Source of the DNA: Shinella sp. WSJ-2
Lineage (GTDB): Bacteria; Pseudomonadota; Alphaproteobacteria; Rhizobiales; Rhizobiaceae
DNA length: 64,000 nucleotides
Assembly: GCF_003432075.1 (NCBI RefSeq)
Contig: NZ_QWBU01000004.1
Span: 1-64,000, forward strand
Direction of reading: 5' to 3'
Under the pieces are notes generated by a model, which saw only the letters and a program-made list of their open reading frames with translations, did no database searches and was not told the DNA's origin. The translations under genes were made by a program, and so were the position numbers. Positions 11,010-64,000 of the stretch are shown one piece after another (the stretch's first letter is position 1; each line of letters starts with the position of its first letter).

Positions 11010-11032
11010 GAAATGTAGCTTACCTACATTTC
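11010..11032. promoter_or_regulatory. Palindromic operator GAAATGTAG-N5-CTACATTTC
   Basis: A perfect inverted repeat with 9-bp arms and a 5-bp spacer sits directly upstream of the -35 box of the importer operon. A third half-copy (AAATGTAG at 11040-11047) lies inside the promoter spacer. A protein bound here would overlap or abut RNA polymerase, so this looks like a repressor or activator site. The RpiR regulator at the operon end (15989) is the obvious local candidate; that is inference. Confidence 0.65.
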
Positions 11033-11034
11033 TT

Positions 11035-11063
11035 TTGACAAATGTAGATTTCTTCACTATACC
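11035..11063 (+). promoter_or_regulatory. Sigma-70-type promoter of the AfuABC-like operon
   Basis: A perfect -35 box TTGACA (11035-11040), 17-bp spacer, and -10 box TATACC (11058-11063, four of six consensus bases). It points at the binding-protein gene starting at 11144, leaving a leader of roughly 70 nt. Confidence 0.7.
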
Positions 11064-11143
11064 CATGATCACGCACGGTGAGCGAGACCTTAAAGCCAGA
11101 AGGCTTAGGCAGGGGCCGTGCGTTCACCTGGAGGAAATCAACA

Positions 11144-49329: not shown

Positions 49330-49358
49330 TTGACAGGATTGTTAACAATGCATTGAAT
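49330..49358 (+). promoter_or_regulatory. Sigma-70-type promoter with embedded operator
   Basis: -35 TTGACA (49330-49335), 17-bp spacer, -10 TTGAAT (49353-49358). The spacer contains the 12-bp perfect palindrome ATTGTTAACAAT (49338-49349), of the TTGT-N2-ACAA type seen for FCD-subfamily GntR operators. A bound repressor would block RNA polymerase directly. It drives the ABC operon starting at 49441. Confidence 0.7.
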
Positions 49359-49440
49359 GCTCTGGCCAAGGCGTGACGTGGCCGCCCTCGCAGCCCGCTC
49401 GCCACTAGAAAATAAATCAATGGCCCAGAGGAAGAACAAT

Positions 49441-50628
49441 ATGCACAAGCGTACATTCCTGAAGTTTTCCGCCCTCGCAGCAGCGACCTTCCTGTCCCTG
49501 CCGCTGATGGCGCATGCCGAGAACGCCAAGCTGAAGATCGGCTTCGTCGGCGTCACCTCCGGCCCGGCCGCGGCCTGGGGTATTTCCAACCAGCGCTCGA
49601 TGGAAGCGCGTGCTGCCTGGCTTAACGAACTCGGCGGCGTGAAGATCGGCGACAAGACCTACGACATCGAGATCGTGCCCTTCGACGACCAGAAGGACCC
49701 GAAGCGCGCCATCGCCGGCATGGAGAAGATGGCACAGGACGGCGTGCACTATGTCGTCGGCCCGAACGTCGATGACGGCGCCGCAGCGGTGCGCCCGGTC
49801 GCCGAGCACAACGGCATCATGTATTTCCCCTACGCCTTCCCGAAAGAGCTTTTCACGGCACCGGCCTCAAACGCGATCCTCGGCATGGTGGCAAACTACC
49901 AGTCTGGCCCGGCCATCTACAAATATCTCAAGGAAAACAAGGGCGTGAAAAAGATCGCCTTCGTTGCCGCCAACGAATCCGACCCGCTCAGCCAGCGTGA
50001 ATCCGGCATTGCCGCCGCCGAGGGTCTCGGCCTCGAAGTAGTGTCCGGCAATGTGACCTACCAGGTGGACACGACCGACTTCACGCCAGTCCTGCTGCCT
50101 GTCATCCAGGCCTCGCCCGACCTTCTCGTTCTCTCGGGCGTTTCGCCGGCCAATGCGCCGCAGCTCATCCGCTCTGCCCGCGAGCTCGGCTATACCGGCT
50201 TCATTTCCACGGAAACGGGACAGGACGCGACCGTTCTGCAGGAAGGTGCAGGCGAACTTGCCGAAGGCTTCATCTCGGTCGGTGGCGCGTCCACGCCGGA
50301 ACTCGCCAGCGACACGATGAAGGAATTCGTCGACCGCTATACAAAGATGTTCGGCGAGTACAACGACGAGTCAAACACCAAGGTCTATGCGCTCGAATAC
50401 ATCCTCGAGACGCTGAAGGCGAACCCGGCGGCAATCGACAATGTCGAGGAATACAAGAAGACCATGGATACGTTTGAAGCGCCGAACCCCTTCATGAAGG
50501 GCGACGCCAAGCTGCGTTATGTCGGCATGACCTCCTTCGGCCAGAAGCGTCAGGTCTCCGTCCCGCTCGTGGTGAACGAATTTAAGGGCGGCAAGTTCGA
50601 GACGATGTTCGTCGGCCAGGTCGACTGA
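49441..50628 (+). CDS. Branched-chain amino acid/amide-type ABC transporter binding protein
   Basis: A 395-residue periplasmic type I binding protein. It has a signal peptide (LMAHA|E), then LKIGFVGVTSGPAAAWGISNQRSMEARAAWLNELGGVKIGDKTYDIEIVPFDDQKDPKRAIAGMEKMAQDGVHYVVGP, the LivJ-like pattern, and PLSQRESGIAAAEGLGLEVV. GAGGA lies 8 nt before the ATG at 49441; the ATG at 49420 overlaps that site. First gene of an operon with LivH/M/G/F-type partners and a hydantoin-type racemase. The racemase suggests a hydantoin, amide or amino-acid derivative as ligand rather than leucine. Confidence 0.88.
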   Translation: MHKRTFLKFSALAAATFLSLPLMAHAENAKLKIGFVGVTSGPAAAWGISNQRSMEARAAWLNELGGVKIGDKTYDIEIVPFDDQKDPKRAIAGMEKMAQDGVHYVVGPNVDDGAAAVRPVAEHNGIMYFPYAFPKELFTAPASNAILGMVANYQSGPAIYKYLKENKGVKKIAFVAANESDPLSQRESGIAAAEGLGLEVVSGNVTYQVDTTDFTPVLLPVIQASPDLLVLSGVSPANAPQLIRSARELGYTGFISTETGQDATVLQEGAGELAEGFISVGGASTPELASDTMKEFVDRYTKMFGEYNDESNTKVYALEYILETLKANPAAIDNVEEYKKTMDTFEAPNPFMKGDAKLRYVGMTSFGQKRQVSVPLVVNEFKGGKFETMFVGQVD

Positions 50629-50653
50629 TCGGAGCCTAGGCATCGATGAGACA

Positions 50654-50690
50654 GGGATCCGGACGCCGCCGCGTCGTTCGGCCGGATCCC
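50654..50690 (+). repeat. Intercistronic stem-loop
   Basis: GGGATCCGG (50654-50662) and its complement CCGGATCCC (50682-50690) around a 19-nt GC-rich loop, between the binding-protein and permease genes. No long T-run follows. It probably stabilises the binding-protein mRNA and lowers expression of the membrane subunits. Confidence 0.6.
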
Positions 50691-50724
50691 TCTTGCCTGA
50701 ACGTCCTTCCATTGGAGGCTCACG

Positions 50725-51594
50725 ATGGAACAGATAATCGCCAACGGTCTCTATCTCGGGGCGCAATATGCGTTGATCGCCCTCGGACTGACCCTGATCT
50801 TCTCGCTGATGAACGTGCTGAATTTCGCCCACGGGCAGATGTACGTCTTCGGCGGCTTTGTCACCTATACGGTCGTCGTCCAGCTCGGCCTGCCCTTCAT
50901 CGTCGGCCTCTTCGCGTCGGCGGTGGTGCTGGCGATCATGGGGGCGGCCATCGAAAAATTCCTGTTCGCGCCGGTCGTGCGCCGCTCCAAGCGCGATGAA
51001 TCGACCATGCTGCTGGCAGCCGGCGTCGCCTTCTTCCTCGATGCGGTCATCCTGCTCTTCTTTGGCGAAAAGCAGCGCGGCGTGCCGAAGGTCGTCAACG
51101 GCGTGCTCAACCTCGATATGCGCATCATCATGCCCTATGACCGCATCCTGATCGGCGTGCTCGCCATCCTGCTGATCGTGGTCTTCATCGGCTTCATGAA
51201 CTATTCCAAGACCGGCCGCGCCATGCGGGCGCTCGCCCAGGACAAGATGGCGGCGCAGTTGATGGGCGTGAACGTCGCCCGCTACTCGATGATCGGCTTT
51301 GCGCTCGGCGCCATGCTCGCCGGCCTCGTCGGCGGCCTTCTCGTCACCATCACCGGCGTCAATCTCGGCATGGGCGGCCCGACGTCGGTCAAGGCCTTCC
51401 TGATGATCATGATCGGCGGCGCGGGTGTCATTTCCGGTGCGATCGCCGGCGGCTTCATCCTCGGCATGATGGAGAGCGTCGGCCTGACCGTGCTCTCGGC
51501 CTATGGCGACATCACCTATCTCGTCATCTTCGCCACGCTGATGGTTTTCCTCGCCGTCCGCCCGCAGGGGCTGATGGGCAAGCCGTGGGGTTAA
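50725..51594 (+). CDS. Branched-chain-type ABC transporter permease (LivH family)
   Basis: A 289-residue inner-membrane permease with about eight hydrophobic segments. Family landmarks are GLYLGAQYALIALGLTLIFSLMNVLNFAHGQMYVFGGF near the start and the coupling region GRAMRALAQDKMAAQLMGVNVARYSMIGFALGAMLAGLVGGL, then GGAGVISGAIAGGFILGMMESVG. Pairs with the LivM-type protein 4 bp downstream. Confidence 0.92.
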   Translation: MEQIIANGLYLGAQYALIALGLTLIFSLMNVLNFAHGQMYVFGGFVTYTVVVQLGLPFIVGLFASAVVLAIMGAAIEKFLFAPVVRRSKRDESTMLLAAGVAFFLDAVILLFFGEKQRGVPKVVNGVLNLDMRIIMPYDRILIGVLAILLIVVFIGFMNYSKTGRAMRALAQDKMAAQLMGVNVARYSMIGFALGAMLAGLVGGLLVTITGVNLGMGGPTSVKAFLMIMIGGAGVISGAIAGGFILGMMESVGLTVLSAYGDITYLVIFATLMVFLAVRPQGLMGKPWG

Positions 51595-51598
51595 GGTC

Positions 51599-52570
51599 AT
51601 GAACACGAAAAGACTTCTCGGCTTCGCAGCCTTCCTACTCACCGTCTTCGTTCTCGTCCCGCTGTTCATTAACGCGACCGGGCGCTGGGACTTCTACTAC
51701 ACGCTGACCTCCGTCGCCCTGCTCTCCGTGGGTGCGGCCGGTGTCTGGCTCACCTTCTATATCGGCCGCATCAATATCGGCCAGGGCGCCTATGCGCTGG
51801 TCGGCGGCTACGTCTCGACGATCCTCGTCACGAAGGCCGGTGTTTCCTTCTGGTGGACGCTGCCGCTGGCTGGCCTGTTCTGCGCCTTCATCTCCGTGCT
51901 GATCGGCCTGCCGATCCTCAGGCTGCGCGGCGTCTATTTCGCCATGGTCACGCTGGTTCTGACGGAAGTCGCCCGCCTGTCCGCCCTCGCCTTACCCATT
52001 ACCAACGGCGCCAAGGGCATCACCTCGATCCCGCAGCCGGGCGAGCTCTCGCTCTTCGGCCTGACGATCATCCCGGACTTCGCCACGCTCTCCAATCCAC
52101 GCGTCGGCTTCTACGTCATGGCCGTGGTGCTGATGATCATCACCTATCTGGTGCTCTGGCGCATCGTGAACTCGCGGCTCGGCCATCTCTGCCGCAGCCT
52201 CCAGCAGAATGAGGAACTGTCGGCCTCGATCGGCGTCAACACCGCCTATCTGCGCCTTCTCGCCTATGCGATCTCCTCGTTCTTCGGCGGCATTGCCGGC
52301 GCGATGTTCGCCTCCATCGCCCAGTCGATCTACCCGTCGTCCTTCGTGGTCGCCGACAGCGTGAACTTCATGCTCTACTGCTTCCTCGGCGGCCTGGGTT
52401 ACGTCTTCGGCCCGATGCTCGGCACGCTGCTGCTCTATTTCGGTTGGGATCTGCTGTCGATCGCCAAGGAATACCAGCTGCTCATCTATTCCGGCGTCAT
52501 GATCCTGCTCATGCTGGTCCTGCCGAACGGTGTCCTCAGCCTTCTCGACAAGAAGGAGGGCCGGGCATGA
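51599..52570 (+). CDS. Branched-chain-type ABC transporter permease (LivM family)
   Basis: A 323-residue inner-membrane permease. It shows the LivM pattern FYIGRINIGQGAYALVGGYVSTIL, LPILRLRGVYFAMVTLVLTEVARL, the coupling loop GHLCRSLQQNEELSASIGVNTAYLRLLAYAISSFFGGIAGAMFA, and YCFLGGLGYVFGPMLGTLLLYF. Its stop overlaps the ATPase start (ATGA). Confidence 0.91.
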   Translation: MNTKRLLGFAAFLLTVFVLVPLFINATGRWDFYYTLTSVALLSVGAAGVWLTFYIGRINIGQGAYALVGGYVSTILVTKAGVSFWWTLPLAGLFCAFISVLIGLPILRLRGVYFAMVTLVLTEVARLSALALPITNGAKGITSIPQPGELSLFGLTIIPDFATLSNPRVGFYVMAVVLMIITYLVLWRIVNSRLGHLCRSLQQNEELSASIGVNTAYLRLLAYAISSFFGGIAGAMFASIAQSIYPSSFVVADSVNFMLYCFLGGLGYVFGPMLGTLLLYFGWDLLSIAKEYQLLIYSGVMILLMLVLPNGVLSLLDKKEGRA

Positions 52571-53349
52571 CCCCGATCCTGCAGATCAAGAACATCACCA
52601 AGCGCTATGGCGGCCTGACGGCGGTGAACGACGTCACCTTCGACGTCAACAAGGGGGAAATCCTCTCGGTGATCGGCCCGAACGGTGCCGGCAAATCGAC
52701 GCTGTTCAAGCTGATCTCCTCCTTCGTGCCGGCGACATCGGGCGAAGTGCTGTTCAACGGCACGCGCATTTCGAGCCTCGCGCCGCACAAGGTGGCGCAG
52801 ATGGGCGTGGTGCGCACCTTCCAGGAAACGACGATCTTCCGCTCCATGACGGTGCGCGAAAACATCATCGTCTCCCATCACCTGCGCTCGACGGCGAGCC
52901 TCTTCGGCTTCTTCATCGGCACCAAGCAGGCGAAGGAGGATGAGGCGGCCTTCGCCAAGTCGGCCGACGACATCGTCGATTTCCTGGGGCTTCAGGCGAT
53001 CCGCAACGAGCTCGCCTCCAACCTGCCGCAGGGGCACCTGCGCGCGCTCGGCATGGCCATCGGCCTTGCCACCGATCCGAAGGTCATCCTGCTCGATGAG
53101 CCCTTCGCCGGCATGAACCACGACGAGACGATGAAGATGGTCGGGCTCGTCCGCCGCCTTCGCGACGAGCGTGGCGTCACTGTTCTCCTCGTCGAGCACG
53201 ACATGCCCGCCGTGATGAAGATCAGCGACCGGATCGTGTGCATCAACTTCGGCCAGAAGATCGCCGAGGGCACGCCCAAGGAAATCCGCGAGAACGAGAA
53301 GGTGATCGAAGCCTATCTCGGCTCCGAAGATGCGGCGATCGGGATGTAA
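52567..53349 (+). CDS. Branched-chain-type ABC transporter ATP-binding protein (LivG family)
   Basis: A 260-residue ATPase. Walker [10 protein letters not shown] is at about 38-46, with the LivG insert [27 protein letters not shown]. The signature is atypical ([18 protein letters not shown], where LSGGQ/LPYGxQR is usual), and Walker B is [23 protein letters not shown] and [38 protein letters not shown] complete the family pattern. It works with the LivF-type partner encoded 3 bp downstream. Confidence 0.91.
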
Positions 53350-53352
53350 GCC

Positions 53353-54075
53353 ATGACCAAGATATTGAGCGTTGAGAATATCGAACTCTACTACGACCAT
53401 ATCTATGCGCTGAAGGGCGTATCGATCGATGTGGATGAAGGCGAAACCGTCGCGCTGATCGGCGCGAACGGGGCAGGCAAATCCTCGATCCTGCGGGCGA
53501 TCACCGGGCTCCGGTCCGTCAAGTCGGGCCAGATCTTCTATCAAGGGCAGAAGCTGAACGGCACCTCGGCGGCCGAGATCGTACGGCGCGGCATCTCCAT
53601 GGTGCCGGAGGGGCGGCGCGCCTTCCCGTTGATGTCGGTGAAGGACAATCTGCTGATGGGCGCCTTCACCCGCACCGACAAGGCGGAGATCGAGCAGACG
53701 CTGGAAAACGTGCTGACACGCTTTCCGCGCCTGCGCGAACGCTATCACCAGCAGGCCAGCACCATGTCGGGTGGCGAGCAGCAGATGATGGTGATCGGCC
53801 GCGCGCTGATGGCGCGCCCGAAGCTCCTGCTCCTGGACGAGCCATCGCTCGGCATCGCGCCCAAGCTGGTGCAGGACATCGCCCGCGCCATTGTCGCCAT
53901 CAGCCGCGACGAGAAGGTCTCCATCCTCCTCGTCGAGCAGAACAGCCGCATGGCCCTCTCCATCTCGAACCGAGCCTATGCGCTCTCCACCGGGTCGATC
54001 GCGCTGTCAGGCAATTCGAAAGAGCTGATGAACGACGACCGCATCAAGGCTGCCTACCTCGGAGGCGAACTCTGA
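53353..54075 (+). CDS. Branched-chain-type ABC transporter ATP-binding protein (LivF family)
   Basis: A 240-residue ATPase. It shows Walker A GANGAGKSS (about 37-45), the LivF motif GISMVPEGRRAFPLMSVKDNLLMGAF, signature MSGGEQQMMVIGRALM, Walker B LLLLDEPSLGIAPKLV and the closing VEQNSRMALSISNRAYALSTGSIALSG. Completes the five-gene importer and ends 1 bp before the racemase start. Confidence 0.93.
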   Translation: MTKILSVENIELYYDHIYALKGVSIDVDEGETVALIGANGAGKSSILRAITGLRSVKSGQIFYQGQKLNGTSAAEIVRRGISMVPEGRRAFPLMSVKDNLLMGAFTRTDKAEIEQTLENVLTRFPRLRERYHQQASTMSGGEQQMMVIGRALMARPKLLLLDEPSLGIAPKLVQDIARAIVAISRDEKVSILLVEQNSRMALSISNRAYALSTGSIALSGNSKELMNDDRIKAAYLGGEL

Positions 54076-54076
54076 C

Positions 54077-54793
54077 ATGAAAATCCTCGTCATCAACCCC
54101 AACACGACCGCCTCGATGACGGATCATATCGGGAAGGCGGCGCGCGCCGCCGCCTCTCCCGGCACCGACATTACTGCCGTCAACCCGGCGCACGGCCCCG
54201 TCTCCATCGAAGGCTATTTCGACGAGGCGATGAGCCTTGCAGGCCTGCTCGATACCATCCGCCGCAACCCCGATTGCGACGCCGTCGTCATCGCCTGTTT
54301 CGACGATACCGGTCTCGACGCCGCTCGCTGCCTCACCGACAAGCCGGTCATCGGCATCGGCGAAGCCGCCTATCACTTCGCCTCGATGATCGCCAACAAG
54401 TTCTCCGTCGTCACGACGCTGGCCCGCTCCGTCCCGGCGCTGGAACATAACCTTGCCCGCTACGGCCTTGACGCGCGTTGCGCCCGCGTACGTTCCTCCG
54501 AAGTCGCCGTGCTGGAACTGGAGCAGCCCGGTTCGAATGCACGGCAGAAGATCAGCGCGGAAATCGGCGTCGCCGTCGCGGAGGATCGCGCCGAAGCCAT
54601 CGTGCTCGGCTGCGCCGGCATGGCGAGCCTCGCGGCCGATCTTGCTGCCGAACACGGCCTGCCCGTGCTCGACGGCGTATCCTGCGCGGTGAAGATGGCC
54701 GAAGCCATGGCCGGTCTCAACATGCGCACCTCCCGCCGTGGCGGCTACGCCCCGCCGCCCTCCAGCAAGCTGGAGCGTATATTTGGAGCCTAA
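54077..54793 (+). CDS. Asp/Glu/hydantoin racemase family protein
   Basis: A 238-residue cofactor-independent racemase. It starts KILVINPNTTASMTDHI and has the two catalytic cysteines in the expected places, C74 (VIACFDDTG) and C179 (IVLGCAGM). IGEAAYHFASMIANKFSVVTTLA and LPVLDGVSCAVKMAEA are also typical of hydantoin/allantoin racemases. It follows the importer with a 1 bp gap, so it probably epimerises the imported compound (a hydantoin or allantoin-like ring) for a stereospecific downstream enzyme. Confidence 0.88.
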   Translation: MKILVINPNTTASMTDHIGKAARAAASPGTDITAVNPAHGPVSIEGYFDEAMSLAGLLDTIRRNPDCDAVVIACFDDTGLDAARCLTDKPVIGIGEAAYHFASMIANKFSVVTTLARSVPALEHNLARYGLDARCARVRSSEVAVLELEQPGSNARQKISAEIGVAVAEDRAEAIVLGCAGMASLAADLAAEHGLPVLDGVSCAVKMAEAMAGLNMRTSRRGGYAPPPSSKLERIFGA

Positions 54794-54937
54794 ACGCGGC
54801 TTCGCGGCATCGTGCCCTGGATGAAACATAGGCTGCAATTATAGTATTGTTCATGCGCTTGTTCGGCTTATTCACCATGGACATAGCCGGCCTGCGCATG
54901 CAATTTGCGGGCGTATTTTCGGACAGGAGATTGCCGC

Positions 54938-55642
54938 ATGGCGCCGAAAGCAGCCAATTCCAGCCGGGGACGCTCGCCGGCCGTTCATCGTGCCCTGAAG
55001 CGCGCAATCCTCGATCAGGCGCTGCTTCCCGGCGCGAAGCTTCCGGAAGATCTGCTCGGCGAACGTCTCGGGGTCAGCCGCACGCTCGTGCGCGAAGCCC
55101 TGGTGCGCCTCAGTGAAGAAGGCCTGGTCGACCTCACCCCCAACAAGGGCGCGACGGTTGCGCGGCCGACGCTGGAGGAAGGGTTGAACCTTTTCATCAC
55201 GCGCATGGCCCTCGAACGCCTTGTCGTGGAATCGCTTTCGGGCAAGCTGACGAAGGCGCAGATCGAAACGCTGACCGCACATATCGCAGCGGAAGAGGCC
55301 GCCAAGCCGGAGCATGCCGTGTCGATCCGCCTTGCCGGGGAATTCCACACGATCCTCGCGCAGATGACCGAGAATGCCAGCCTGATCCGCTATGTGAACG
55401 AGACCGTCGCCCGCAGCTCCCTCATCCTGGCGCTCTACGGGCGGCCGCATTCGTCGGATTGCGCCGTCTCCGAGCATCAGGAAATTCTCCGCCATCTCAT
55501 CGCCGGCGAGACGGATGCCGCCTCCAAGCTGATGATGCACCATCTCGACGCAATCTCGACCCGCGCGCTCCTCCCCCGCGACAGCGACCGGGACATGAAG
55601 GACGTCTTGTCGGACTATGCTGTTGCGGAAGGCCTGCTCTGA
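54938..55642 (+). CDS. GntR family regulator, FCD subfamily
   Basis: A 234-residue regulator. It has a winged helix (about 14-75: VHRALKRAILDQALLPGAKLPEDLLGERLGVSRTLVREALVRLSEEGLVDLTPNKGATVA) and an FCD effector domain (about 85-215), with ITRMALERLVVESL, EFHTILAQMTEN and the EHQEILRHLIAGE helix. An AGGAGA ribosome site precedes the ATG. It is the second FCD regulator in this part of the window and stands just upstream of the Rieske oxygenase genes, so it may control them. Confidence 0.9.
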   Translation: MAPKAANSSRGRSPAVHRALKRAILDQALLPGAKLPEDLLGERLGVSRTLVREALVRLSEEGLVDLTPNKGATVARPTLEEGLNLFITRMALERLVVESLSGKLTKAQIETLTAHIAAEEAAKPEHAVSIRLAGEFHTILAQMTENASLIRYVNETVARSSLILALYGRPHSSDCAVSEHQEILRHLIAGETDAASKLMMHHLDAISTRALLPRDSDRDMKDVLSDYAVAEGLL

Positions 55643-55717
55643 CCTGCATGGCCTTCCCGCTCTGTCGTGCCGCCCAAAACCCTTATCACAAGCCGATCGA
55701 GCCGCTATTCTGCGGAA

Positions 55718-56011
55718 ATGACGACGCTGTTGGAGCCCTCCGTGCCGGGTGAAACCTATACTCTCTTGCGAGAACGTATGACGATCCGCGGCGAGCTTGA
55801 CGCGGACAGTTTCCTGCCGTGGATCCGCCGCCATGCCAGTAAGCTCGGCCTTTTCCAGGACATCGTTCATAGTGGTCCCGACCGCATCGAAGTGGACCTT
55901 GCCGGTGCGCCGGAGCTCATCGATATGATGGAGGTTGGCTGCCTGTTGGGGCCGATTAACGTATGGGTTGAAACCATCGATCGCAGGCGCGTCAGCAATG
56001 CCGGTGGATAG
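55718..56011 (+). CDS. Acylphosphatase-like protein, catalytic residues lost
   Basis: A 97-residue small protein. The stretch ERMTIRGELDADSFLPWIRRHASKLGLFQDIVHSGPDRIEVDLAGAPELIDMMEVGCLLGPINVWVETI follows the acylphosphatase pattern (GxVQGVGFRxWVRRxAxxLGLxGWVRNxxDGxVEV...KxGPxxAxV). The active-site GVGFR becomes DADSF and the catalytic Asn position (WVRN) is IVHS, so it should not hydrolyse acyl phosphates. It probably keeps the fold as a binding or partner domain. Start at the ATG 55718. It lies between the GntR gene and the Rieske genes on the same strand. The family call is by pattern only. Confidence 0.6.
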   Translation: MTTLLEPSVPGETYTLLRERMTIRGELDADSFLPWIRRHASKLGLFQDIVHSGPDRIEVDLAGAPELIDMMEVGCLLGPINVWVETIDRRRVSNAGG

Positions 56012-56120: not shown

Positions 56121-56777
56121 TTGGAAAATATCCTCATACCTGCAGGGCCGACGGGCTCTTGGGTTCCGGTCGCCCTTTCTTCGGATCTACCGGCGGGAAC
56201 CGTCCTGCCGGCGCGCATTCCCGCAGGCGCGCTCGCGCTCTGGCGCAGCCAGTCCGGCCGTGTCGCCGCCTCGGCGGATCGATGTCCACACCGCGGGATG
56301 AGCCTTTCGCACGGTTTCGTGCGGGGCGAGACGCTCTCCTGCATCTATCACGGCTGGAGCTATGGGCAGGCCGGGAACTGTCTGCGCATCCCCGCCCATC
56401 CCGGACTGACGCCGCCTGACGCGATCCGCACTGTCACCCATCCGGTGACAGAGGCCGATGGCGTGGTCTGGGTCGCCGTCGACGAACCCACTGCCGCGCC
56501 CCCGGGCCTTGCCGGCCTTGTGCCCTTGCGCTCGCTCACCGCCTTCGCCGACATTGCCGCAATCGAGGCGGCCGCCGGAGTCAAGGCGACGGCCGATGGG
56601 CTGGTGAACGCGGGAGATATCCGCCTCCTGCTGTCATCCACCCGAGATGGCGAAACTCTTATCCATGTACTGGTCTCGGCCGATGCCGGTCCTGCCGCCC
56701 GTATTGCGGCGGCGCGCATCGCCGAAGGTCTGCGCCGCAAGGCCGAGGATATCTACAAGAAGGGAGCCGCCCGATGA
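56121..56777 (+). CDS. Free-standing Rieske [2Fe-2S] protein
   Basis: A 218-residue cytosolic electron carrier. The Rieske cluster ligands are complete: C55-P-H57-R-G and C74-I-Y-H77-G-W, as in oxygenase-type Rieske domains. After about residue 120 there is no oxygenase catalytic domain; the last 80 residues form a small helical/beta region (VPLRSLTAFADIAAI...DIYKKGAAR). The start is TTG at 56121 (no ATG or GTG fits, weak ribosome site). Its stop overlaps the ATG of the Rieske-less oxygenase (ATGA), so the two are translationally coupled. It probably gives the [2Fe-2S] centre that the oxygenase lacks. Confidence 0.82.
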   Translation: MENILIPAGPTGSWVPVALSSDLPAGTVLPARIPAGALALWRSQSGRVAASADRCPHRGMSLSHGFVRGETLSCIYHGWSYGQAGNCLRIPAHPGLTPPDAIRTVTHPVTEADGVVWVAVDEPTAAPPGLAGLVPLRSLTAFADIAAIEAAAGVKATADGLVNAGDIRLLLSSTRDGETLIHVLVSADAGPAARIAAARIAEGLRRKAEDIYKKGAAR

Positions 56778-57619
56778 TCGTAGGCCCCATGCTCGATGAA
56801 TGGTACCCGGTCGGCATCTTCGGCCAGCTCGACGAAGCCGGCCGCAAGACCATGCTGATGGGCGAACCGATCGTGGTCGCGCGCAATGGAAACGGCGACG
56901 CCAGGGTGACCGACAGCACCGGCCGCAGCCTGCCGGTGCGCGTGCGCTACGGCCATGTCTGGACCTCGCTTGGCGATCCGCAAAAAGAACTCTTTGCGAT
57001 CCCTGAGGCCGACCAGCCGGGCCGCCGCTTCGTCGATGTCGGCGTTGTTCGGGTGCGCTGCTCGCCGCTTCGCGCCGTCGAGAATTTTTTGGACATCGCC
57101 CACTTCCCCTTCGTGCACACCGATATTCTCGGCGCCGAGCCGCATACGGAAGTGCAGGCCTACAAGGTCGAAATCCGCGAGGATGTCGATGAGGTCTGGG
57201 CCACGCAGGTGCAGTTCTACCAGCCGCAGGCGGCGAAATCGGCAAGTGGCGGCATCACCACGCAATATATGTACCGCGTGGCCGGACCGACCTCGACCGT
57301 GCTCTACAAGACCTGCCCGCCGAAGCCGAGCGAATGGGACGTTATCACGCTCTTCGTGCAGCCGCTCACCGAGGATCTCTGCGACGTCTGGCCCTGGATG
57401 GCGCTGTTCGACGACGACACGCCGATGACCGATCTCATCCATTTCCAGCAGACGATCTTCCTACAGGACCGCTCGATCCTGGAAAACCAGGTGCCGCGCC
57501 TCCTGCCGCTCGATCCCGGCATGGAAATGCCGACGCGCGCGGACCTGACCTCCGTCGCCTACCGGCGCTGGTTGAAGCGTCACAACTTTACCTATGGTGC
57601 GCAGCTGGTGGCGCAATGA
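56774..57619 (+). CDS. Non-haem iron oxygenase catalytic subunit lacking a Rieske cluster (NdmC-like)
   Basis: A 281-residue protein with the C-terminal half of a Rieske oxygenase alpha subunit. The mononuclear iron site is intact: N104-x2-D107-x2-H110-x4-H115 (ENFLDIAHFPFVH) and the third ligand D232 (LQDRSILENQ). The N-terminus (EWYPVGIFGQL...GEPIVVARNGNG) keeps the scaffold of a Rieske domain but has none of the CxH/CxxH ligands and is shortened. This matches NdmC, the Rieske-less subunit of bacterial caffeine N7-demethylase, which takes electrons from a Rieske domain on another protein. It is coupled upstream to a Rieske protein and downstream to a GST-like gene. Reaction (N- or O-dealkylation, or hydroxylation) is inference. 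Confidence 0.82.
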   Translation: MIVGPMLDEWYPVGIFGQLDEAGRKTMLMGEPIVVARNGNGDARVTDSTGRSLPVRVRYGHVWTSLGDPQKELFAIPEADQPGRRFVDVGVVRVRCSPLRAVENFLDIAHFPFVHTDILGAEPHTEVQAYKVEIREDVDEVWATQVQFYQPQAAKSASGGITTQYMYRVAGPTSTVLYKTCPPKPSEWDVITLFVQPLTEDLCDVWPWMALFDDDTPMTDLIHFQQTIFLQDRSILENQVPRLLPLDPGMEMPTRADLTSVAYRRWLKRHNFTYGAQLVAQ

Positions 57620-58278
57620 TGAAGCTTTACGACTACATTCTCTCACCGAGCTGCTACAAGGTGCGCCTGATGGCGGCACTGACAGGCGTCAAGCTCGACC
57701 TGCGCGCCGTCGATTTCCATCCCGGCCTCGAACATCGCGGTCCGGAACTGCTGGCGCTCAATCCCGCCGGCTCGATCCCCATCCTTGAAGACGGCGATCT
57801 GCTCCTGACCGAATCCTCCGCCATGCTCGTCTATCTCGCGGCGAAAGCCGCCCCGGACTGGCTTGCCGGCAGCGATGCGCAAGAAGCCGCCCGCGTGCAG
57901 CAATGGCTGTCCTTCTCCGGCCGGCTCACGGCAAGCCTCGGCGGTGCGCGTCTGCACGAAATGCTGCTGCGCCCGGGTGATATCGACGCTCTTCGGGCAT
58001 CGGGCATCGCCGCCCTTCGCGAACTGGAACTCGGCCTCGTCGAGCAGGCGGAACGCGGACAGAACTTCCTGGCAGCGAACCGGCCGACCGTCGCCGACAT
58101 CGCCTGTTTCCCCTACGTGGCGCTGGCGCCCGATGGCGGCGTGCCGCTCGATCCCTATCCGGCGATCCGCCTCTGGTCGCGCCGGCTCCGCTCGCTTCCC
58201 GGCTTCATCGAAATGCCCGGCATCCACCGGCTGCACGAACTGAAGCCCGAGCCGCAGCTCGAAACGGGCGAGGCGTGA
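57616..58278 (+). CDS. Glutathione S-transferase-like protein (NdmE-like partner)
   Basis: A 220-residue GST fold. The N-terminal thioredoxin-like domain (about 1-80) contains KLYDYILSPSCYKVRLMAALTG, the cis-Pro loop AGSIPILEDGDL and the ESSAM motif. The helical C-terminal domain (about 90-200) contains NRPTVADIACFPYVALAPDGG. The start overlaps the oxygenase stop (ATGATG; ATG 57616 or 57619). In the caffeine N7-demethylase a GST-like protein, NdmE, holds the Rieske-less oxygenase and its Rieske reductase together; the placement here argues for that structural role rather than a detoxifying one. Confidence 0.8.
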   Translation: MMKLYDYILSPSCYKVRLMAALTGVKLDLRAVDFHPGLEHRGPELLALNPAGSIPILEDGDLLLTESSAMLVYLAAKAAPDWLAGSDAQEAARVQQWLSFSGRLTASLGGARLHEMLLRPGDIDALRASGIAALRELELGLVEQAERGQNFLAANRPTVADIACFPYVALAPDGGVPLDPYPAIRLWSRRLRSLPGFIEMPGIHRLHELKPEPQLETGEA

Positions 58279-58279
58279 C

Positions 58280-59650
58280 ATGACCGGCCATCTCCTGAAG
58301 AACTGCGCCGCCGTCATCGTCAATGACGGCAATGGCCCGACGGTCCGGCGCAATGTCGACCTCCTCACCGAGGGCCCCGCCATCAAGGCGATCGGCGAGA
58401 ACCTGTCCGCCGGCCCCGGCATTGAGGTGCAGGACGCCACCGGCTGGTTCGTCTATCCCGGCCTCGTCAACACGCATCACCATTTCTTCCAGTGCTTCGT
58501 GCGCAACCGCGCCGATCTCGACTGGACGAAACTCTCCGTCATCGAGTGGCTGGACCGCATCTATCCGATTTTCTCGCAGCTCAACGAGGAATGCTTCTAC
58601 CATTCCTCCGTCACGGCCATGGCCGAGCTGATCAAGCATGGCTGCACCACCGCCTTCGACCACCAGTACAATTTCCCGCGTCATGCCGGGAAGCGGCTGA
58701 TCGACCGGCAGTTCGAGGCCGCCGACCTGCTCGGCATGCGTTTCCACGCAGGCCGCGGCGGCAACACGCTACCGAAATCCGAAGGATCGACCATCCCCGA
58801 CGCCATGCTGGAGACGACGGACGAGTTCATCGCCGATTGCGCCCGTTTGATCGATACCTATCATGACGCAAAGCCCTTCAGCATGCGCCAGGTCGTCGTC
58901 GCGCCCTGCCAGCCGGTGAATTGCTATCGCGAGACCTTCGTGGAATCCGTAGCGCTGGCGCGCGATCGCGGCGTCTACCTGCACACCCATGTCGGCGAGG
59001 GCGAAAGCCCTGTTATCGCGGCGCGCCACGGCAAGCGCACGGTCGATTATCTGGAGGAACTGGGTTTTGCCGGCCCGGATGCCTTCTATGCCCATTGCTG
59101 GGAACTGACGCATGATGAGCTGAAGACCATGGCGGCAAGCGGCACCGGCGTGTCGCATTGCCCCGAGCCTGTCTATCTCGTCGGCGCGGAAGTGACCGAC
59201 ATCCCCGCCATGGCGGCTTTCGGCCTGCGCGTCGGTCTCGGCTGCGACGGTGCGGCCTCCAACGACAATTCCAACCTGATGCACTGCCTGCACTCGGCCT
59301 ATATGCTGCAATGCCTCGTCGCCTCGACGCGCAAGCATCCCGTGCCCGATCCGGTCGATTTCCTCGGCTATGGCACGACGGGCGGCGCGAGCCTGCTCGG
59401 CCGGCCGGATATCGGCCGGCTCGCGCCCGGCATGGCCGCCGATCTCTTCGCCATCGACACGCGCCGCATGGATTATGTCGGCACGCGGCATGATCCCGTC
59501 AGCCTGATCCCGCGTGTCGGCATCGGCATGGCGACGGACATGACGATGATCAATGGCCGCATCGTCTGGCAGGACGGCGCGTTTCCGGGCCTCGACGAGG
59601 CGAAGCTTGCCGCCGATGCGGAAGCCGCGCTCGCCACCGTAGAATTCTAA
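58280..59650 (+). CDS. Amidohydrolase, 8-oxoguanine deaminase-like (TrzA/AtzB/guanine deaminase group)
   Basis: A 456-residue metal-dependent deaminase. Metal ligands are H66-x-H68 (NTHHHFFQ), H235/H237 (LHTHVGEG), H272 (FYAHCWELT) and D323 (GLGCDGAASNDNSN). The region around VIEWLDRIYPIFSQLNEECFYHSSVTAMAELIKHGCTTAFDHQYNFP reads like 8-oxoguanine deaminase. It starts 1 bp after the GST-like stop. It would deaminate a purine-type or triazine-like ring. Its place between the oxygenase set and a nucleoside-type importer supports catabolism of a purine derivative. Confidence 0.86.
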   Translation: MTGHLLKNCAAVIVNDGNGPTVRRNVDLLTEGPAIKAIGENLSAGPGIEVQDATGWFVYPGLVNTHHHFFQCFVRNRADLDWTKLSVIEWLDRIYPIFSQLNEECFYHSSVTAMAELIKHGCTTAFDHQYNFPRHAGKRLIDRQFEAADLLGMRFHAGRGGNTLPKSEGSTIPDAMLETTDEFIADCARLIDTYHDAKPFSMRQVVVAPCQPVNCYRETFVESVALARDRGVYLHTHVGEGESPVIAARHGKRTVDYLEELGFAGPDAFYAHCWELTHDELKTMAASGTGVSHCPEPVYLVGAEVTDIPAMAAFGLRVGLGCDGAASNDNSNLMHCLHSAYMLQCLVASTRKHPVPDPVDFLGYGTTGGASLLGRPDIGRLAPGMAADLFAIDTRRMDYVGTRHDPVSLIPRVGIGMATDMTMINGRIVWQDGAFPGLDEAKLAADAEAALATVEF

Positions 59651-59673: not shown

Positions 59674-60771
59674 ATGACCAACCTGACCCGCAGAAACCTG
59701 ATGAAGGCCGCGGCCGCCACCGGCCTTGCCGGCGTGCTCGGCAGCCGCCTTGCCTTCGCCGCCGACGAGCCGCTCGGCATCACGCTCGTCGTGCCCTCGC
59801 CGATCGGCGATGTGGGCTGGGGCCACGCGCTTTCCGCCAGCCTGGAGCCTGTCAAGGCCAAGTACGGCGACAAGGTGAAGGTCACGGTGCTGGAAAACAT
59901 CATGGAAGGCCCAGACGCTGACCGCATCATGACCAAGACCGTCGCTGACGGAAACAAGTTCCTGATCGCCGGCTCCTTCGGCTACCAGAACGGCGCGCTG
60001 CAGGTCGCCCGCCGCGATCCCGGCGTCACCGTGCTGCATGCCTCCGGCTTCCAGGTTGCGCCGAACTTCTCGCCCTTCGCCGCGAAATATTTCCAGGGCA
60101 CCTACCTGCTCGGCATGGCCGCGGCAGCGCTCTCCAAGACCGGCAAGCTCGGCTCCGTCTCGGCTTTCGCCATTCCCGAACTCATAACCTCGATCAACGC
60201 CTTCACGCTCGGCGCCCAGGCCGTGAACCCGGATATCGAGGTCTCCGTCGTCTGGGTCAATTCCTGGTTCGACCCCGCCAAGGAACAGGAAGCGGCCAAG
60301 GCCCTGATCGCGCAGAAATGCGACGTGATCTTCTCTAACGCGCAAGACACGCCCTCCGTCGTGGCGGCCTGCGAGGATGCCGGCGTTTATTCCTTCAACC
60401 TCAACTCCTCGATGAAGAAATATGCCGAGAAGACCTATCTCGGCTGCGTCGCGACCGACTGGTCGCCCTTCTTCCTGGCCTCGGTCGAAGCCCATCTCGC
60501 CGGCACCTTCAAGGGTGCCAATGCCTTCCTCGGCGTGGCCGACAAGGTGGTTCAGGTTACGGACTGGAACCCTGCGATCCCTGCCGACGCGATGACGAAG
60601 ATCAAGGAAACCGAGGCCAAGATCGCCGACGGCAGCTTCTCGCCCTTCACCGGCCCGATCGCCAAGGCCGACGGGAGCGAGGGTGTCGCGGCTGGCGCCA
60701 CGATGACCGACCCCGAGATCATCGCGATGGACTGGCACGTCAAGGGCGTCGCCACCCCGCTGCCGAAGTAA
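59674..60771 (+). CDS. BMP family ABC transporter substrate-binding protein (nucleoside/purine type)
   Basis: A 365-residue periplasmic protein of the BmpA/PnrA family. It has a twin-arginine-type signal (TRRNLMKAAAATG, cleavage near AFAAD). Mature landmarks are ITLVVPSPIGDVGWGHALSASLEPVKAKYGDKVKVTVLENIMEGPDADRIMTKTVADGNKFLIAGSFGY, FAAKYFQGTYLLGMAAAALSKTGKLG, and SVVWVNSWFDPAKEQEAAKALIAQKCDVIFSNAQDTPSVVAACE. Family members bind nucleosides or nucleobases. It follows the deaminase by 23 bp and starts the importer genes. Confidence 0.9.
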   Translation: MTNLTRRNLMKAAAATGLAGVLGSRLAFAADEPLGITLVVPSPIGDVGWGHALSASLEPVKAKYGDKVKVTVLENIMEGPDADRIMTKTVADGNKFLIAGSFGYQNGALQVARRDPGVTVLHASGFQVAPNFSPFAAKYFQGTYLLGMAAAALSKTGKLGSVSAFAIPELITSINAFTLGAQAVNPDIEVSVVWVNSWFDPAKEQEAAKALIAQKCDVIFSNAQDTPSVVAACEDAGVYSFNLNSSMKKYAEKTYLGCVATDWSPFFLASVEAHLAGTFKGANAFLGVADKVVQVTDWNPAIPADAMTKIKETEAKIADGSFSPFTGPIAKADGSEGVAAGATMTDPEIIAMDWHVKGVATPLPK

Positions 60772-60775
60772 GCCC

Positions 60776-62293
60776 ATGACCCCGCCCCTCCTGTCGCTGC
60801 GCGGCATCTCGAAGAGCTACGGACCGATCAAGGCCAACCAGGGCATCGATCTTGATGTGGCCGAGCGGTCGATCCACGCGATCCTCGGCGAGAACGGGGC
60901 GGGCAAATCGACGCTGATGAAACTCATCTACGGCGTCGAACAGCCGGACGACGGCACCGCGACCTGGCAGGGCGAGCCACTCGCCCTCGCCTCCCCCGCC
61001 GAGGCGCGGCGGCAGGGTATCGGCATGGTCTTCCAGCATTTCTCGCTGTTCGAGACCCTGACGGTGGTGGAAAATATCCGCCTCGTCGTGCCCGGCAAGA
61101 AGGCTGAACTGACCGAGCGCATCCGCACGCTCGGACGCGATTTCGGTCTGGAGGTCGATCCGCTCGCCCATGTGCATGCGCTCTCGGTCGGCGAGCGTCA
61201 GCGGGTGGAGATCATCCGCTGCCTGATGACAAATCCGAAATTGCTGATCCTCGACGAGCCGACCTCGGTCTTGCCGCCGCAACTGGTGGAAAAGCTCTTC
61301 GACACGCTGCGGCGCCTGCGCGACGGCGGCGTGTCCATTCTCTTCATCTCGCACAAGCTGGAGGAAATCCGGGCGATCTGCGACCGCGCAACGATCCTGC
61401 GCGCCGGCCGCGTGACCGGCAATGTCGATCCGCGCGAGCACGACGCGCATGATCTTGCCCGCATGATGATCGGCCGCGATATGCCCGAGCCGATGCCGGC
61501 CGAACCCCGGAGCGGCGGCGACAAGCAGCTCGAGATCGTCGGCCTCGACCATACGCCCGACGATCCCTTCGCCGTGCCGCTCGCCGATATCAATCTGACG
61601 GTGCGTGCCGGCGAGATCCTCGGCATCGCCGGCGTTTCCGGCAATGGCCAGAGCGAACTCGCTGCCCTGATCTCCGGCGAGAACCGGCTTTCCCGTCATG
61701 AAAAGGATCGTATTTTCATGATGGGCGCCGACGTCGGTCAGCTTGGCCCGGCGGCACGCCGCGCGCGCGGCTTCGCCTTCGTGCCGGAAGACCGGCTCGG
61801 CCGCGGTGCGGTGCCCGAAATGTCGCTGGTGCTGAACGGGCTGCTGACCGCCCATCCGCTGAAGCTCCTGAAAAACGGCCTCGTCGACAAGGCTGGGGCC
61901 ACTGCCTTCGCCGAGACCTGCATCCGCGACTTCGACGTACGCACGCCCGGCCCGCAGGCGGAAGCCGGGGCGCTTTCCGGCGGCAATCTGCAAAAATTCA
62001 TCGTCGGCCGGGAGATCATGCTGGCACCGAAACTGCTTTTCGTCGCCCAGCCGACCTGGGGTGTCGATATCGGCGCGGCCTCGGCCATCCGCCGCCGGCT
62101 GATAGCACTGCGCAATGCGGGCATGGCGATCCTCGTCATATCGGAGGAGCTGGAAGAATTGTTCGAACTCGCCGATACGATCCAGGTGCTCTATCATGGC
62201 CACCTCAGCCCGCCGCTGGTGACACGTGACACGCGGCCGGAAGAGATCGGCCGCTATATGATGGGCGCAAAGCCGGAAAAGGCCGACGCATGA
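60776..62293 (+). CDS. Nucleoside-type ABC transporter ATP-binding protein (YufO family), double domain
   Basis: A 505-residue ATPase with two ABC domains. Domain 1 has Walker A GENGAGKST (about 39-47), signature-region LSVGERQRVEIIRCLM and Walker B LLILDEPTSVLPPQ. Domain 2 has a degenerate nucleotide loop (GVSGNGQSEL at about 286), signature LSGGNLQKFIVGREI and Walker B LLFVAQPTWGVDIGAA, where DEP is replaced by AQP. Such asymmetric sites are normal for the sugar/nucleoside ATPase group. Starts 4 bp after the binding-protein stop. Confidence 0.9.
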   Translation: MTPPLLSLRGISKSYGPIKANQGIDLDVAERSIHAILGENGAGKSTLMKLIYGVEQPDDGTATWQGEPLALASPAEARRQGIGMVFQHFSLFETLTVVENIRLVVPGKKAELTERIRTLGRDFGLEVDPLAHVHALSVGERQRVEIIRCLMTNPKLLILDEPTSVLPPQLVEKLFDTLRRLRDGGVSILFISHKLEEIRAICDRATILRAGRVTGNVDPREHDAHDLARMMIGRDMPEPMPAEPRSGGDKQLEIVGLDHTPDDPFAVPLADINLTVRAGEILGIAGVSGNGQSELAALISGENRLSRHEKDRIFMMGADVGQLGPAARRARGFAFVPEDRLGRGAVPEMSLVLNGLLTAHPLKLLKNGLVDKAGATAFAETCIRDFDVRTPGPQAEAGALSGGNLQKFIVGREIMLAPKLLFVAQPTWGVDIGAASAIRRRLIALRNAGMAILVISEELEELFELADTIQVLYHGHLSPPLVTRDTRPEEIGRYMMGAKPEKADA

Positions 62294-63384
62294 GCATGAC
62301 GCATTTCGTGCCCAATCTCGTGCGCCGCGAACGTGCCTCGCGCAAGGCGATGCTGCTTGCGCCGCCGCTGGCGCTCGCCGCCGCGATCCTGCTCAATCTC
62401 GCGCTTTATGTGCTGATGGGGCGCGATCCAGCTGCCGTCGTGCATGCCATGCTGCTGGAGCCCTTCCTCTCCTGGTCGTCGTTTTCCGAAGTACTGCTGA
62501 AGACCGGGCCGTTGCTTCTCATCGCGCAGGGCCTCGCCATCGGCTTCCGCGCCAAGGTGTTCAATATCGGCGCGGAGGGGCAGTTCATCCTCGGCGCGAT
62601 CTTCGCTTCCGCCATCCCGATCTGGTTTCCGCAAGCGACTGGCGGCTGGATCTGGCCTGCCATGCTCCTGATCGGCGCCATCGGCGGCGCGCTGTGGGCC
62701 GGCATCACCGCCTTCTGGCGTGTGCGGCTCAACGCCAACGAAATCCTCGTCTCACTGATGCTGAGCCTGGTGGCTGCGCAACTCCTCTATTACCTGCTGC
62801 TCGGCCCCTGGAAGGATCCGAACGGCTTCAATTTCCCGCAATCCGTGATGTTCCAGTACGACGCCATGGTGCCGACGCTGTTTGCCGGCACGCGCGTCAA
62901 CGTCTCGCTCCTGATCGCGCTCGCACTGTCGCTCGCCGCCTGGGTCTTCATGCAGAGAAGCTTTATGGGCTACAAGCTGCAGGTCGGCGGCCTTGCCCCG
63001 CGCGCTGCCGGCTATGCCGGCTTCAGCGAGGGCGGAGCGATCTGGCTGTCGCTGCTCATCGGCGGTTTCGCCGCAGGTCTTGCCGGGGCGGCGGAAGTCG
63101 CAGGGCCGCTGGGCCAGCTCCAGCGTTCGATCTCCACCGGCTACGGCTATTCCGCGATCATCGTCGCCTATCTCGGCGGCCTGCATCCCATCGGCATCGT
63201 CATCTCCTCGCTGGTCATGGCGGCGATCTCGATCGGCGGCGACAATGCCATGGTCTCGGCCAACCTGCCGATTGCCGCCGTGCGCGTCTTCCAGGGCAGC
63301 CTGCTGCTTGCCTATCTCGTCGCCGTCGCCTTCGTGCGCTATCGCCTCGAATGGCCGCAGATATCAGCGCGGAGCCCGTCATGA
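62290..63384 (+). CDS. Nucleoside-type ABC transporter permease (YufP family)
   Basis: A 364-residue inner-membrane permease with about ten hydrophobic segments. It shows LLIAQGLAIGFRAKVFNIGAEGQFILGAIFA, WAGITAFWRVRLNANEILVSLMLSLVA, MGYKLQVGGLAPRAAGYAGFSEGGAIWLSLLIGGFAAGLAGAAEVAG and the late GYGYSAIIVAYLGGLHPIGIVISSL, the standard pattern for the BMP-linked importer. Its ATG overlaps the ATPase stop and its stop overlaps the next permease start (ATGA). Confidence 0.9.
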   Translation: MSMTHFVPNLVRRERASRKAMLLAPPLALAAAILLNLALYVLMGRDPAAVVHAMLLEPFLSWSSFSEVLLKTGPLLLIAQGLAIGFRAKVFNIGAEGQFILGAIFASAIPIWFPQATGGWIWPAMLLIGAIGGALWAGITAFWRVRLNANEILVSLMLSLVAAQLLYYLLLGPWKDPNGFNFPQSVMFQYDAMVPTLFAGTRVNVSLLIALALSLAAWVFMQRSFMGYKLQVGGLAPRAAGYAGFSEGGAIWLSLLIGGFAAGLAGAAEVAGPLGQLQRSISTGYGYSAIIVAYLGGLHPIGIVISSLVMAAISIGGDNAMVSANLPIAAVRVFQGSLLLAYLVAVAFVRYRLEWPQISARSPS

Positions 63385-64000
63385 ACGCCGTCGAATTCAT
63401 TCTTGCCGGCATGCTGGCGGCGGCAACGCCCTTCCTGCTCGCAGCCCTCGGCGAACTGGTGGTCGAGCGGGCCGGCGTGCTCAATCTCGGCGTCGAGGGC
63501 CTGATGGCCTTCGGCGCGGTCATCGCCTTCATCATCGTCTATCATGGCGGCGGGCATTTCATCGCCTTCATCGCCGCCGGGATCTGCGGCGCGCTGCTTT
63601 CGCTCGTTTTCGCCCTCATCGCGCTCGGCTTCCGCGCCAATCAGGTCGCGACGGGCCTTGCCATCGGCATTCTCGGCCAAGGCCTGTCCGCCCTCTTCGG
63701 CAAGAGCTACGAGAGCCTGACGGTGAAGGGCCTGCCGAAGATCGGCATTCCCGGTCTTGCCGACCTGCCTGTTATCGGCGGCCTCTTCGTTCAGGATAGT
63801 GTCGTCTGGCTATCCTTGCTGGCGACGCTCTGCATCTGGGCGACCTTCGCCTTCACCAAGACCGGTCTCGTCATTCGCGCCGTTGGCGAAAACCCGAAGG
63901 CTGCGCATGCCATCGGCTATCCCGTCATCGCCGTGCGCGTCGCCGCCGTCGCCTTCGGCGGCATGATGGCCGGCCTTGCCGGCGCCTATGCCTCGGTGGT
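63381..64000 (+). CDS. Nucleoside-type ABC transporter permease (YufQ family), cut by window end
   Basis: The first 206 codons are visible, and the frame is still open at base 64000. It starts MNAVEFILAGMLAAATPFLLAALGELVVERAGVLNLGVEGLMAFGAVIAF, the typical second-permease start of BMP-linked importers, with LGFRANQVATGLAIGILGQGLSALFGKSYESLTVKGLP and TKTGLVIRAVGENPKAAHAIGYPVIAVRVAAVAFGGMMAGLAGAYASV following. It pairs with the YufP-type permease, overlapping it by 4 bp. Confidence 0.9.
   Translation, partial: MNAVEFILAGMLAAATPFLLAALGELVVERAGVLNLGVEGLMAFGAVIAFIIVYHGGGHFIAFIAAGICGALLSLVFALIALGFRANQVATGLAIGILGQGLSALFGKSYESLTVKGLPKIGIPGLADLPVIGGLFVQDSVVWLSLLATLCIWATFAFTKTGLVIRAVGENPKAAHAIGYPVIAVRVAAVAFGGMMAGLAGAYASV

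Follow-up and report, generated by a model that had tools for sequence, protein, structure and literature searches.

In Rieske oxygenases, electron transfer takes place between neighbouring subunits, the Rieske cluster of one supplying the iron of the other. Among the described systems, NdmCDE of Pseudomonas putida CBB5 demethylates 7-methylxanthine (excerpt of PMC4408171), and the work that described it in 2013 reported homologous clusters in Mesorhizobium (same excerpt). Here we analyse a stretch of 64,000 nucleotides from Shinella sp. WSJ-2 (NZ_QWBU01000004.1, positions 1 to 64,000; hereafter the window), which contains three contiguous genes, named here RSK, OXY and GST, transcribed in the same direction:

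56121-56777, forward strand: RSK, free Rieske [2Fe-2S] protein, 218 aa, TTG start (open reading frame, Pfam, ligand motif).
56774-57619, forward strand: OXY, Rieske-less NdmC-like non-heme iron oxygenase, 281 aa (open reading frame, Pfam, tree).
57616-58278, forward strand: GST, NdmE-like protein of glutathione-transferase fold, 220 aa (open reading frame, Pfam, kinship to NdmE).

Taken as a whole, the data are best explained if this trio is, as we consider likely, a Rieske oxygenase related to NdmCDE and associated with purines, its alpha subunit being made as two separate proteins, one for each half. An earlier note on this DNA had described three genes overlapping by 4 bp each, and this was borne out: RSK and OXY share the 4 bp ATGA, and the sequence ATGATG offers two starts for GST, the first giving an overlap with OXY of 4 bp as well and the second one of 1 bp. 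Pfam domains were matched in all three products: Rieske in RSK (3.2e-21), VanA_C in OXY (7.4e-20) and GST_N in GST (9.5e-13), the last in agreement with the GST-like nature proposed in that note. RSK contains the four Rieske ligands C55/H57/C74/H77 in the arrangement C-x-H ... C-x2-H. OXY, which the note had taken for an oxygenase with a mononuclear iron site and no Rieske ligands, indeed has N104/D107/H110/H115/D232; we take H110, H115 and D232 to be the iron ligands of a 2-His-1-carboxylate site and D107 to be the bridging aspartate. GST shows the stretches SPSC (from residue 10) and IPIL (from 54) and an ES motif (from 66). RSK was the strongest of eight Rieske matches in the Shinella genome, where a second copy of OXY was not found, the next matches having E values of 0.05 and 0.4. 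The Rieske domain of RSK is closest to those of Rieske oxygenases (SxtT, E 1.4e-25), with ferredoxins among the weaker matches.

Conservation of the trio was surveyed by a genome scan that confirmed at least 502 relatives, of which the best 80 named loci were kept; because the scan kept nearest relatives, these loci are no sample of all architectures. In every one of the 80, a Rieske-less OXY had within 3 kb, and in the same orientation, a free RSK with the ligand motif, and a GST was present as well, so the arrangement in the window is no local error. An amidohydrolase gene lay within 3 kb in 70 of them, and a gene for a BMP-family protein within 6 kb in 75. In alignments prepared after thinning of redundant loci, the four Rieske ligands were invariant in 72 rows of RSK (alignment A5) and the five residues N104/D107/H110/H115/D232 in 63 rows of OXY (alignment A6), while none of the 121 OXY rows scoring above 150 bits had the C-x-H ... 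C-x2-H motif. With OXY as tblastn query, 303 plasmid records were matched, of which 123 showed 80-95% identity; most of those listed were from Rhizobium. Among the loci kept from the genome scan, the nearest named relative was Shinella curvata (95%). From RSK through to the second permease (see below), the genes follow one another as in the window in the annotated regions of Shinella zoogloeoides and R. leguminosarum WSM1325. Thirty short loci, including that of the window, comprised 25 with free RSK and GST, one with an NdmD fusion and four without RSK within 3.8 kb. At the level of the phylum, 24 of 398 sampled genomes gave a match at E 1e-30, intact forms counted in, and the group spans Rhizobiaceae, Phyllobacteriaceae, Paracoccaceae, Roseobacteraceae, Geminicoccaceae and other families. 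The free-Rieske trio is thus a large and widespread group rather than a rarity, and its operon is one of root-associated bacteria. Two individual loci differed in their frames. Locus L128 (Rhizobium sp. RCAM05350, CP087974), one of the best 80, has this operon too, but its OXY, GST and amidohydrolase genes are split into several frames, by either decay or sequencing error; in locus L252 (7907-8476; genome G591) the OXY frame is devoid of its N-terminal part, RSK, GST and a separate reductase being present.

The earlier note had called for a phylogeny of the oxygenase against NdmA, NdmB and NdmC. In a careful tree of 77 oxygenases, all Rieske-less forms constituted one clade (support 99/99). 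Two groups were resolved within it, the NdmD-fusion forms (90/84) and the free-Rieske forms (97/89), the latter including the window. This free-Rieske group has 40 rows, six of them with an RSK that is not beside OXY; a Variovorax oxygenase-reductase fusion and a free form (L177) lie outside both groups, and the nearest rows outside the Rieske-less clade are intact enzymes of about 330 aa. Two long-branch rows were omitted from this tree and many near-identical free rows had been thinned beforehand, and a quick tree of all 79 oxygenase rows agreed with it (supports 100, 93 and 88). A freshly broken intact oxygenase was therefore ruled out by conservation and tree together. The Rieske-domain tree (97 rows) had a similar outline, RSK and NdmD coming together (91) with an NdmD group (96) and a main free group (91), although it is built on 124 columns and has many open forks and very long outgroup branches. 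Three rows labelled as free (L207, L209 and L210) fell elsewhere in it and are probably ordinary oxygenases.

Two plasmid loci link the trio to the Ndm proteins. Locus L044 (P. putida) and locus L043 (K. pneumoniae) each encode an NdmC-like protein, a 585-aa NdmD-like Rieske-reductase protein and an NdmE-like GST, the labels NdmC and NdmE being assigned from gene order and size. The reductase of L044 matches the ferredoxin chain of the solved NdmD structure (8.5e-35), and L043 additionally encodes an NdmB-like protein (1.4e-186). The window proteins are 43-46% (OXY against NdmC-like), 30-33% (RSK against the N-terminal part of NdmD) and 40-41% (GST against NdmE-like) identical to their counterparts at these two loci. 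Judged by sequence, the relative of OXY is NdmC and that of GST is NdmE, while RSK is related to the N-terminal part of NdmD. The kinship proposed in the earlier note thus holds for all three proteins, as does the difference in architecture, the Rieske protein being free instead of fused to a reductase as in NdmD; the trio is a real, widespread and unfused variant of the NdmCDE kind. As a separate observation, L043 (7850-13379; CP024507, from a rectal isolate) unites NdmB-, NdmC-, NdmD- and NdmE-like genes on one plasmid, which was typed as conjugative.

Comparison of the two halves suggested how they may have arisen. OXY retains the frame of a Rieske domain minus its cluster-binding part. The AlphaFold2 model of RSK (mean pLDDT 93.6) shows, besides the Rieske domain, the succession b-a-b-b-b-a over residues 133-217, an order of elements that we read in the model as resembling a shrunken helix-grip catalytic domain. 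The earlier note was consequently right about the full Rieske site of RSK and inexact in denying it an oxygenase domain: a working one is absent, and there is an apparent shrunken remnant at about 133-217. The inter-domain segment of NdmD scored 39 against the OXY profile (E 1.5e-5), a value equalled by none of 150 column shuffles. Because this post-Rieske segment of NdmD resembles the catalytic domain of OXY, the reading that we favour is that an oxygenase was duplicated and that RSK and OXY are its degenerate, mutually complementary remains: RSK and the N-terminal part of NdmD on one side, and OXY on the other, would be paralogues from a single ancestral oxygenase of about 330 aa, each having lost by complementary degeneration what the other kept, and one branch would have fused RSK to its reductase to give NdmD. 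The direction of these fusions and losses is likewise our proposal. Several results tell against this origin. Against the intact-enzyme profile the NdmD segment scored 22.4, which 1 of 150 shuffles reached; the whole RSK profile aligned to intact enzymes over residues 7-134 only; and the C-terminal segment of RSK taken alone gave weak matches (E 0.007-0.14), though at the same hairpin. The remnant signal was significant only for NdmD, against the Rieske-less profile.

In the mechanism that we propose, RSK would carry the [2Fe-2S] centre and OXY the mononuclear iron, OXY binding O2 and the substrate. RSK would dock on OXY in the manner of the Rieske domain of the neighbouring subunit in an alpha3 oxygenase, electrons would pass from RSK to the iron of OXY through the bridging aspartate D107, and GST may hold the RSK-OXY pair together. 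One result weighs against this proposal: the mirror-tree correlation between RSK and OXY (0.853) was hardly above those between RSK and the other genes of the operon (0.834-0.847), and it therefore provides no evidence of contact. Throughout, architectures were read from profile matches, because the longest-ORF (open reading frame) gene caller misplaced genes in GC-rich loci.

The trio is followed in the window by genes transcribed in the same direction:

58280-59650, forward strand: amidohydrolase, 8-oxoguanine-deaminase-like (family profile match below cut-off, solved relatives).
59674-60771, forward strand: BMP-family substrate-binding protein, closest solved relative AtzT (profile and structure-sequence match).
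60776-62293, forward strand: ATP-binding protein of an ABC (ATP-binding cassette) transporter (open reading frame; order as annotated in Shinella zoogloeoides).
62290-63384, forward strand: ABC transporter permease (open reading frame; order as annotated in Shinella zoogloeoides).
63381-64000, forward strand: second ABC transporter permease, running past the end of the window (open frame from ATG 63381).

Upstream of the trio there is a small open reading frame (55667-56011); at the position just before RSK, the annotation of Shinella zoogloeoides has an acylphosphatase. Further upstream, the region 49357-55642 contains genes for a branched-chain/urea-type ABC transporter, an Asp/Glu/hydantoin racemase (54077-54793) and a GntR regulator (54905-55642), and is possibly a second ureide or hydantoin uptake unit.

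From these neighbours the substrate of the trio is probably a purine. The amidohydrolase scored 367 of 532 bits against NCBIfam NF006055 (8-oxoguanine deaminase), below the cut-off, and shows the motifs HHH66, HTH235, AHCW271 and CDGAAS322, to which we ascribe roles in the metal site. Among its solved relatives is 2paj, listed as a putative cytosine/guanine deaminase and presumably an isoxanthopterin deaminase. AtzT, the best solved relative of the BMP protein, binds guanine at about 110 nM (excerpt of PMC6834077), and six of its nine guanine-site residues are identical in the BMP protein. The operon would thus import a purine, which the oxygenase would dealkylate or hydroxylate and the amidohydrolase deaminate. 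The substrate is perhaps an N7-methylated purine, in which case the trio would catalyse N-demethylation; 7-methylguanine might then be deaminated to 7-methylxanthine and this in turn demethylated, a route for which the literature search gave nothing relevant. Two observations are unfavourable to this assignment. The remaining three guanine-site residues are changed in the BMP protein (Y45 to W, N169 to S and N220 to D). In addition, five OXY relatives (L138, L140, L141, L154 and L155) stand in clusters with a GMC oxidoreductase, an aldehyde dehydrogenase, a xanthine-dehydrogenase-like molybdenum protein and an amidohydrolase, these names deriving from profiles for L154 and from clustering for the other four; reactions other than N-demethylation are therefore likely in the wider family. 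A possibility that we take seriously, without expecting it to hold, is that the trio is no N-demethylase and acts on a non-methylated purine or pterin by ring hydroxylation. The resemblance of the amidohydrolase to 8-oxoguanine deaminase and to 2paj, the AtzT-like binding protein and the existence of intact Rieske enzymes annotated as xanthine hydroxylase (HpxD) all fit such a reaction, whereas the nearest characterised purine-acting relatives, NdmC and NdmA, are N-demethylases.

An NdmD-class reductase was not found beside the trio in the window, and in this branch another electron donor would be needed. Genomes G085, G226 and G591 do have a separate reductase gene next to the trio; all three are of the free-Rieske type and lie outside the subclade of the window. 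In the order sample, 12 of the 31 free-Rieske genomes gave a VanB/NdmD-class match at E 1e-50 or better, a limit of our own choosing applied to at most seven candidates per genome, and the other 19 gave none at this limit. When 15 of these 19, selected for the absence of a reductase, were re-scored with all candidates (G244, G237, G067 and G021 being left out), the best match had an E value of 1e-35, and G180 and G223 had none at E 1e-8; G591, re-scored along with them, gave 3.2e-101 for a reductase inside its trio cluster. Since 19 of 31 genomes are without a match, the reductase of the trio is often not of the VanB/NdmD class. The earlier note, which had postulated a reductase still to be found, was thus correct in that none is encoded in the cluster, and is refined in that many of these genomes give no match to a reductase of this class.

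The best reductase matches in the Shinella genome were a GbcB-like protein, encoded beside a GbcA-like oxygenase (both below their own family cut-offs), and PaaE. As dedicated partners of the trio both were rejected: PaaE (C25) is above its own family cut-off and adjoins PaaC and PaaD, and the GbcB-like reductase (C22) adjoins the GbcA-like oxygenase. The latter may be shared with the trio. More generally, the electron supply could be an ordinary one if the true partner were a reductase (GbcB-like here, VanB-class in other genomes) whose gene lies elsewhere and which also serves another oxygenase. Redox partners of Rieske oxygenases are often promiscuous (excerpt of PMC12445004), and the 12 genomes with a match, like the GbcB-like gene in Shinella, agree with sharing; the 19 genomes lacking a match, with nothing better than E 1e-35 in the 15 re-scored and nothing at E 1e-8 in two of them, make it unlikely. 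A different lead to the donor came from PF14759, the domain of BphA4-type ferredoxin reductases, which was present in all 31 free-Rieske genomes and in 160 of the 266 others of the order sample (Fisher p 5e-7, kinship and genome size ignored). The 160 comprised 8 of 15 NdmD-type and 152 of 251 remaining genomes; the groups were tallied by hand, five genomes (G179, G005, G222, G259 and G150) being called NdmD-type only from the position of the reductase match and the frame length. We treat this reductase as a lead and not as an identification.

Five genomes (G099, G278, G293, G237 and G643), three of them of one genus, encode two Rieske-less oxygenases each, and only one RSK match per genome is strong (1e-59 or better). 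Behind it, the RSK profile matched at 1e-20 to 1e-24 in G099, G278, G293 and G237; most of these matches lay in frames of 344-448 aa, a length seen in intact oxygenases, and one in G237 in a 186-aa frame. G643 had no second-rank match. Similarly, on pSymA of S. meliloti two NdmC-like genes precede one NdmD-like gene. Tentatively, and with somewhat less than even confidence, we propose that the split by complementary degeneration replaced the homotrimer by a hetero-oligomer of two paralogous subunits, in which a general ferredoxin/ferredoxin-reductase chain reduces the free Rieske protein and one Rieske protein serves several catalytic subunits. One RSK beside two OXY genes could also be expected if RSK were a diffusible Rieske ferredoxin donating electrons to an independent one-domain oxygenase without a stable complex, GST being an unrelated detoxification enzyme. 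Rieske ferredoxins do appear among the weaker RSK matches, and the window GST and 65 others of the 129 GST rows keep ESSA or ESAA, presumably the glutathione-site motif; we nevertheless find this improbable, given that the Rieske domain of RSK is nearest to SxtT and not to ferredoxins and groups with that of NdmD, and that GST accompanies the pair in all of the best 80 loci. Virtually no credence remains for a decaying or mis-assembled oxygenase split by deletion or sequencing error, which would draw on the loss in OXY of exactly the cluster-binding part of the Rieske domain and on the broken frames of L128, and which is refuted by the invariant ligands, the retention of the trio throughout the 80 loci, the 123 plasmid records at 80-95% identity and the single Rieske-less clade.

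The preferred reading, an NdmCDE-like oxygenase in separate halves, has several features that appear to be new. The free-Rieske form is not described in the excerpts of PMC4408171, PMC8055839 and PMC12445004, the literature search having covered no subscription papers, among them the original NdmCDE paper of 2013. As the Mesorhizobium loci of this analysis (for example L070 and L080) are of the free-Rieske type, the authors of that paper may have met such clusters. As far as the search shows, what is new is that the Rieske protein is free, that a reductase of the NdmD class is frequently absent, that a single Rieske protein goes with two oxygenases and that there is evidence of complementary degeneration. 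As its two centres can be purified separately, a natural two-protein form opens the inter-subunit electron step to direct study and titration. The series of intact enzymes, free parts, Rieske-reductase fusion and oxygenase-reductase fusion offers a comparative view of how multi-component oxygenases are assembled, and the trio points to a purine pathway carried by many plasmids of rhizobia. According to a review from 2025, how specific Rieske oxygenases are for their redox partners is poorly known, which is a significant barrier, and no self-sufficient Rieske oxygenase system has been identified (excerpt of PMC12445004).

Compared with known systems, the trio resembles NdmCDE of P. putida CBB5 in having a Rieske-less oxygenase, a Rieske centre on another polypeptide, a GST-like third protein and a purine context (43% identity for OXY, 33% for RSK and 40% for GST, by way of the homologues on the P. 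putida Tik1 plasmid), and differs from it in that RSK stops where NdmD runs on into the reductase and in that the window cluster has no reductase gene. SxtT and SxtDIOX are the nearest solved sequences to each half of the trio oxygenase, but have both centres in one chain, as do NdmA and NdmB, which are weaker matches to OXY and RSK. The intact Rieske oxygenases nearest to the Rieske-less clade (L150, L151 and L179-L185; 327-387 aa) have a similar transporter context, a BMP gene adjoining 9 of the 11 nearest-looking intact relatives of this size examined; unlike the trio, they combine Rieske centre and iron in one protein and show no GST match in the stretches covered (mostly 3.7 kb). Finally, the plasmid cluster of Variovorax paradoxus VAI-C (L048; CP063167) shares with the window a free RSK, an NdmC-like oxygenase, a GST and a BMP protein, but its oxygenase is fused to an FNR/2Fe-2S reductase (604 aa, 9968-11782), with RSK upstream and GST downstream.

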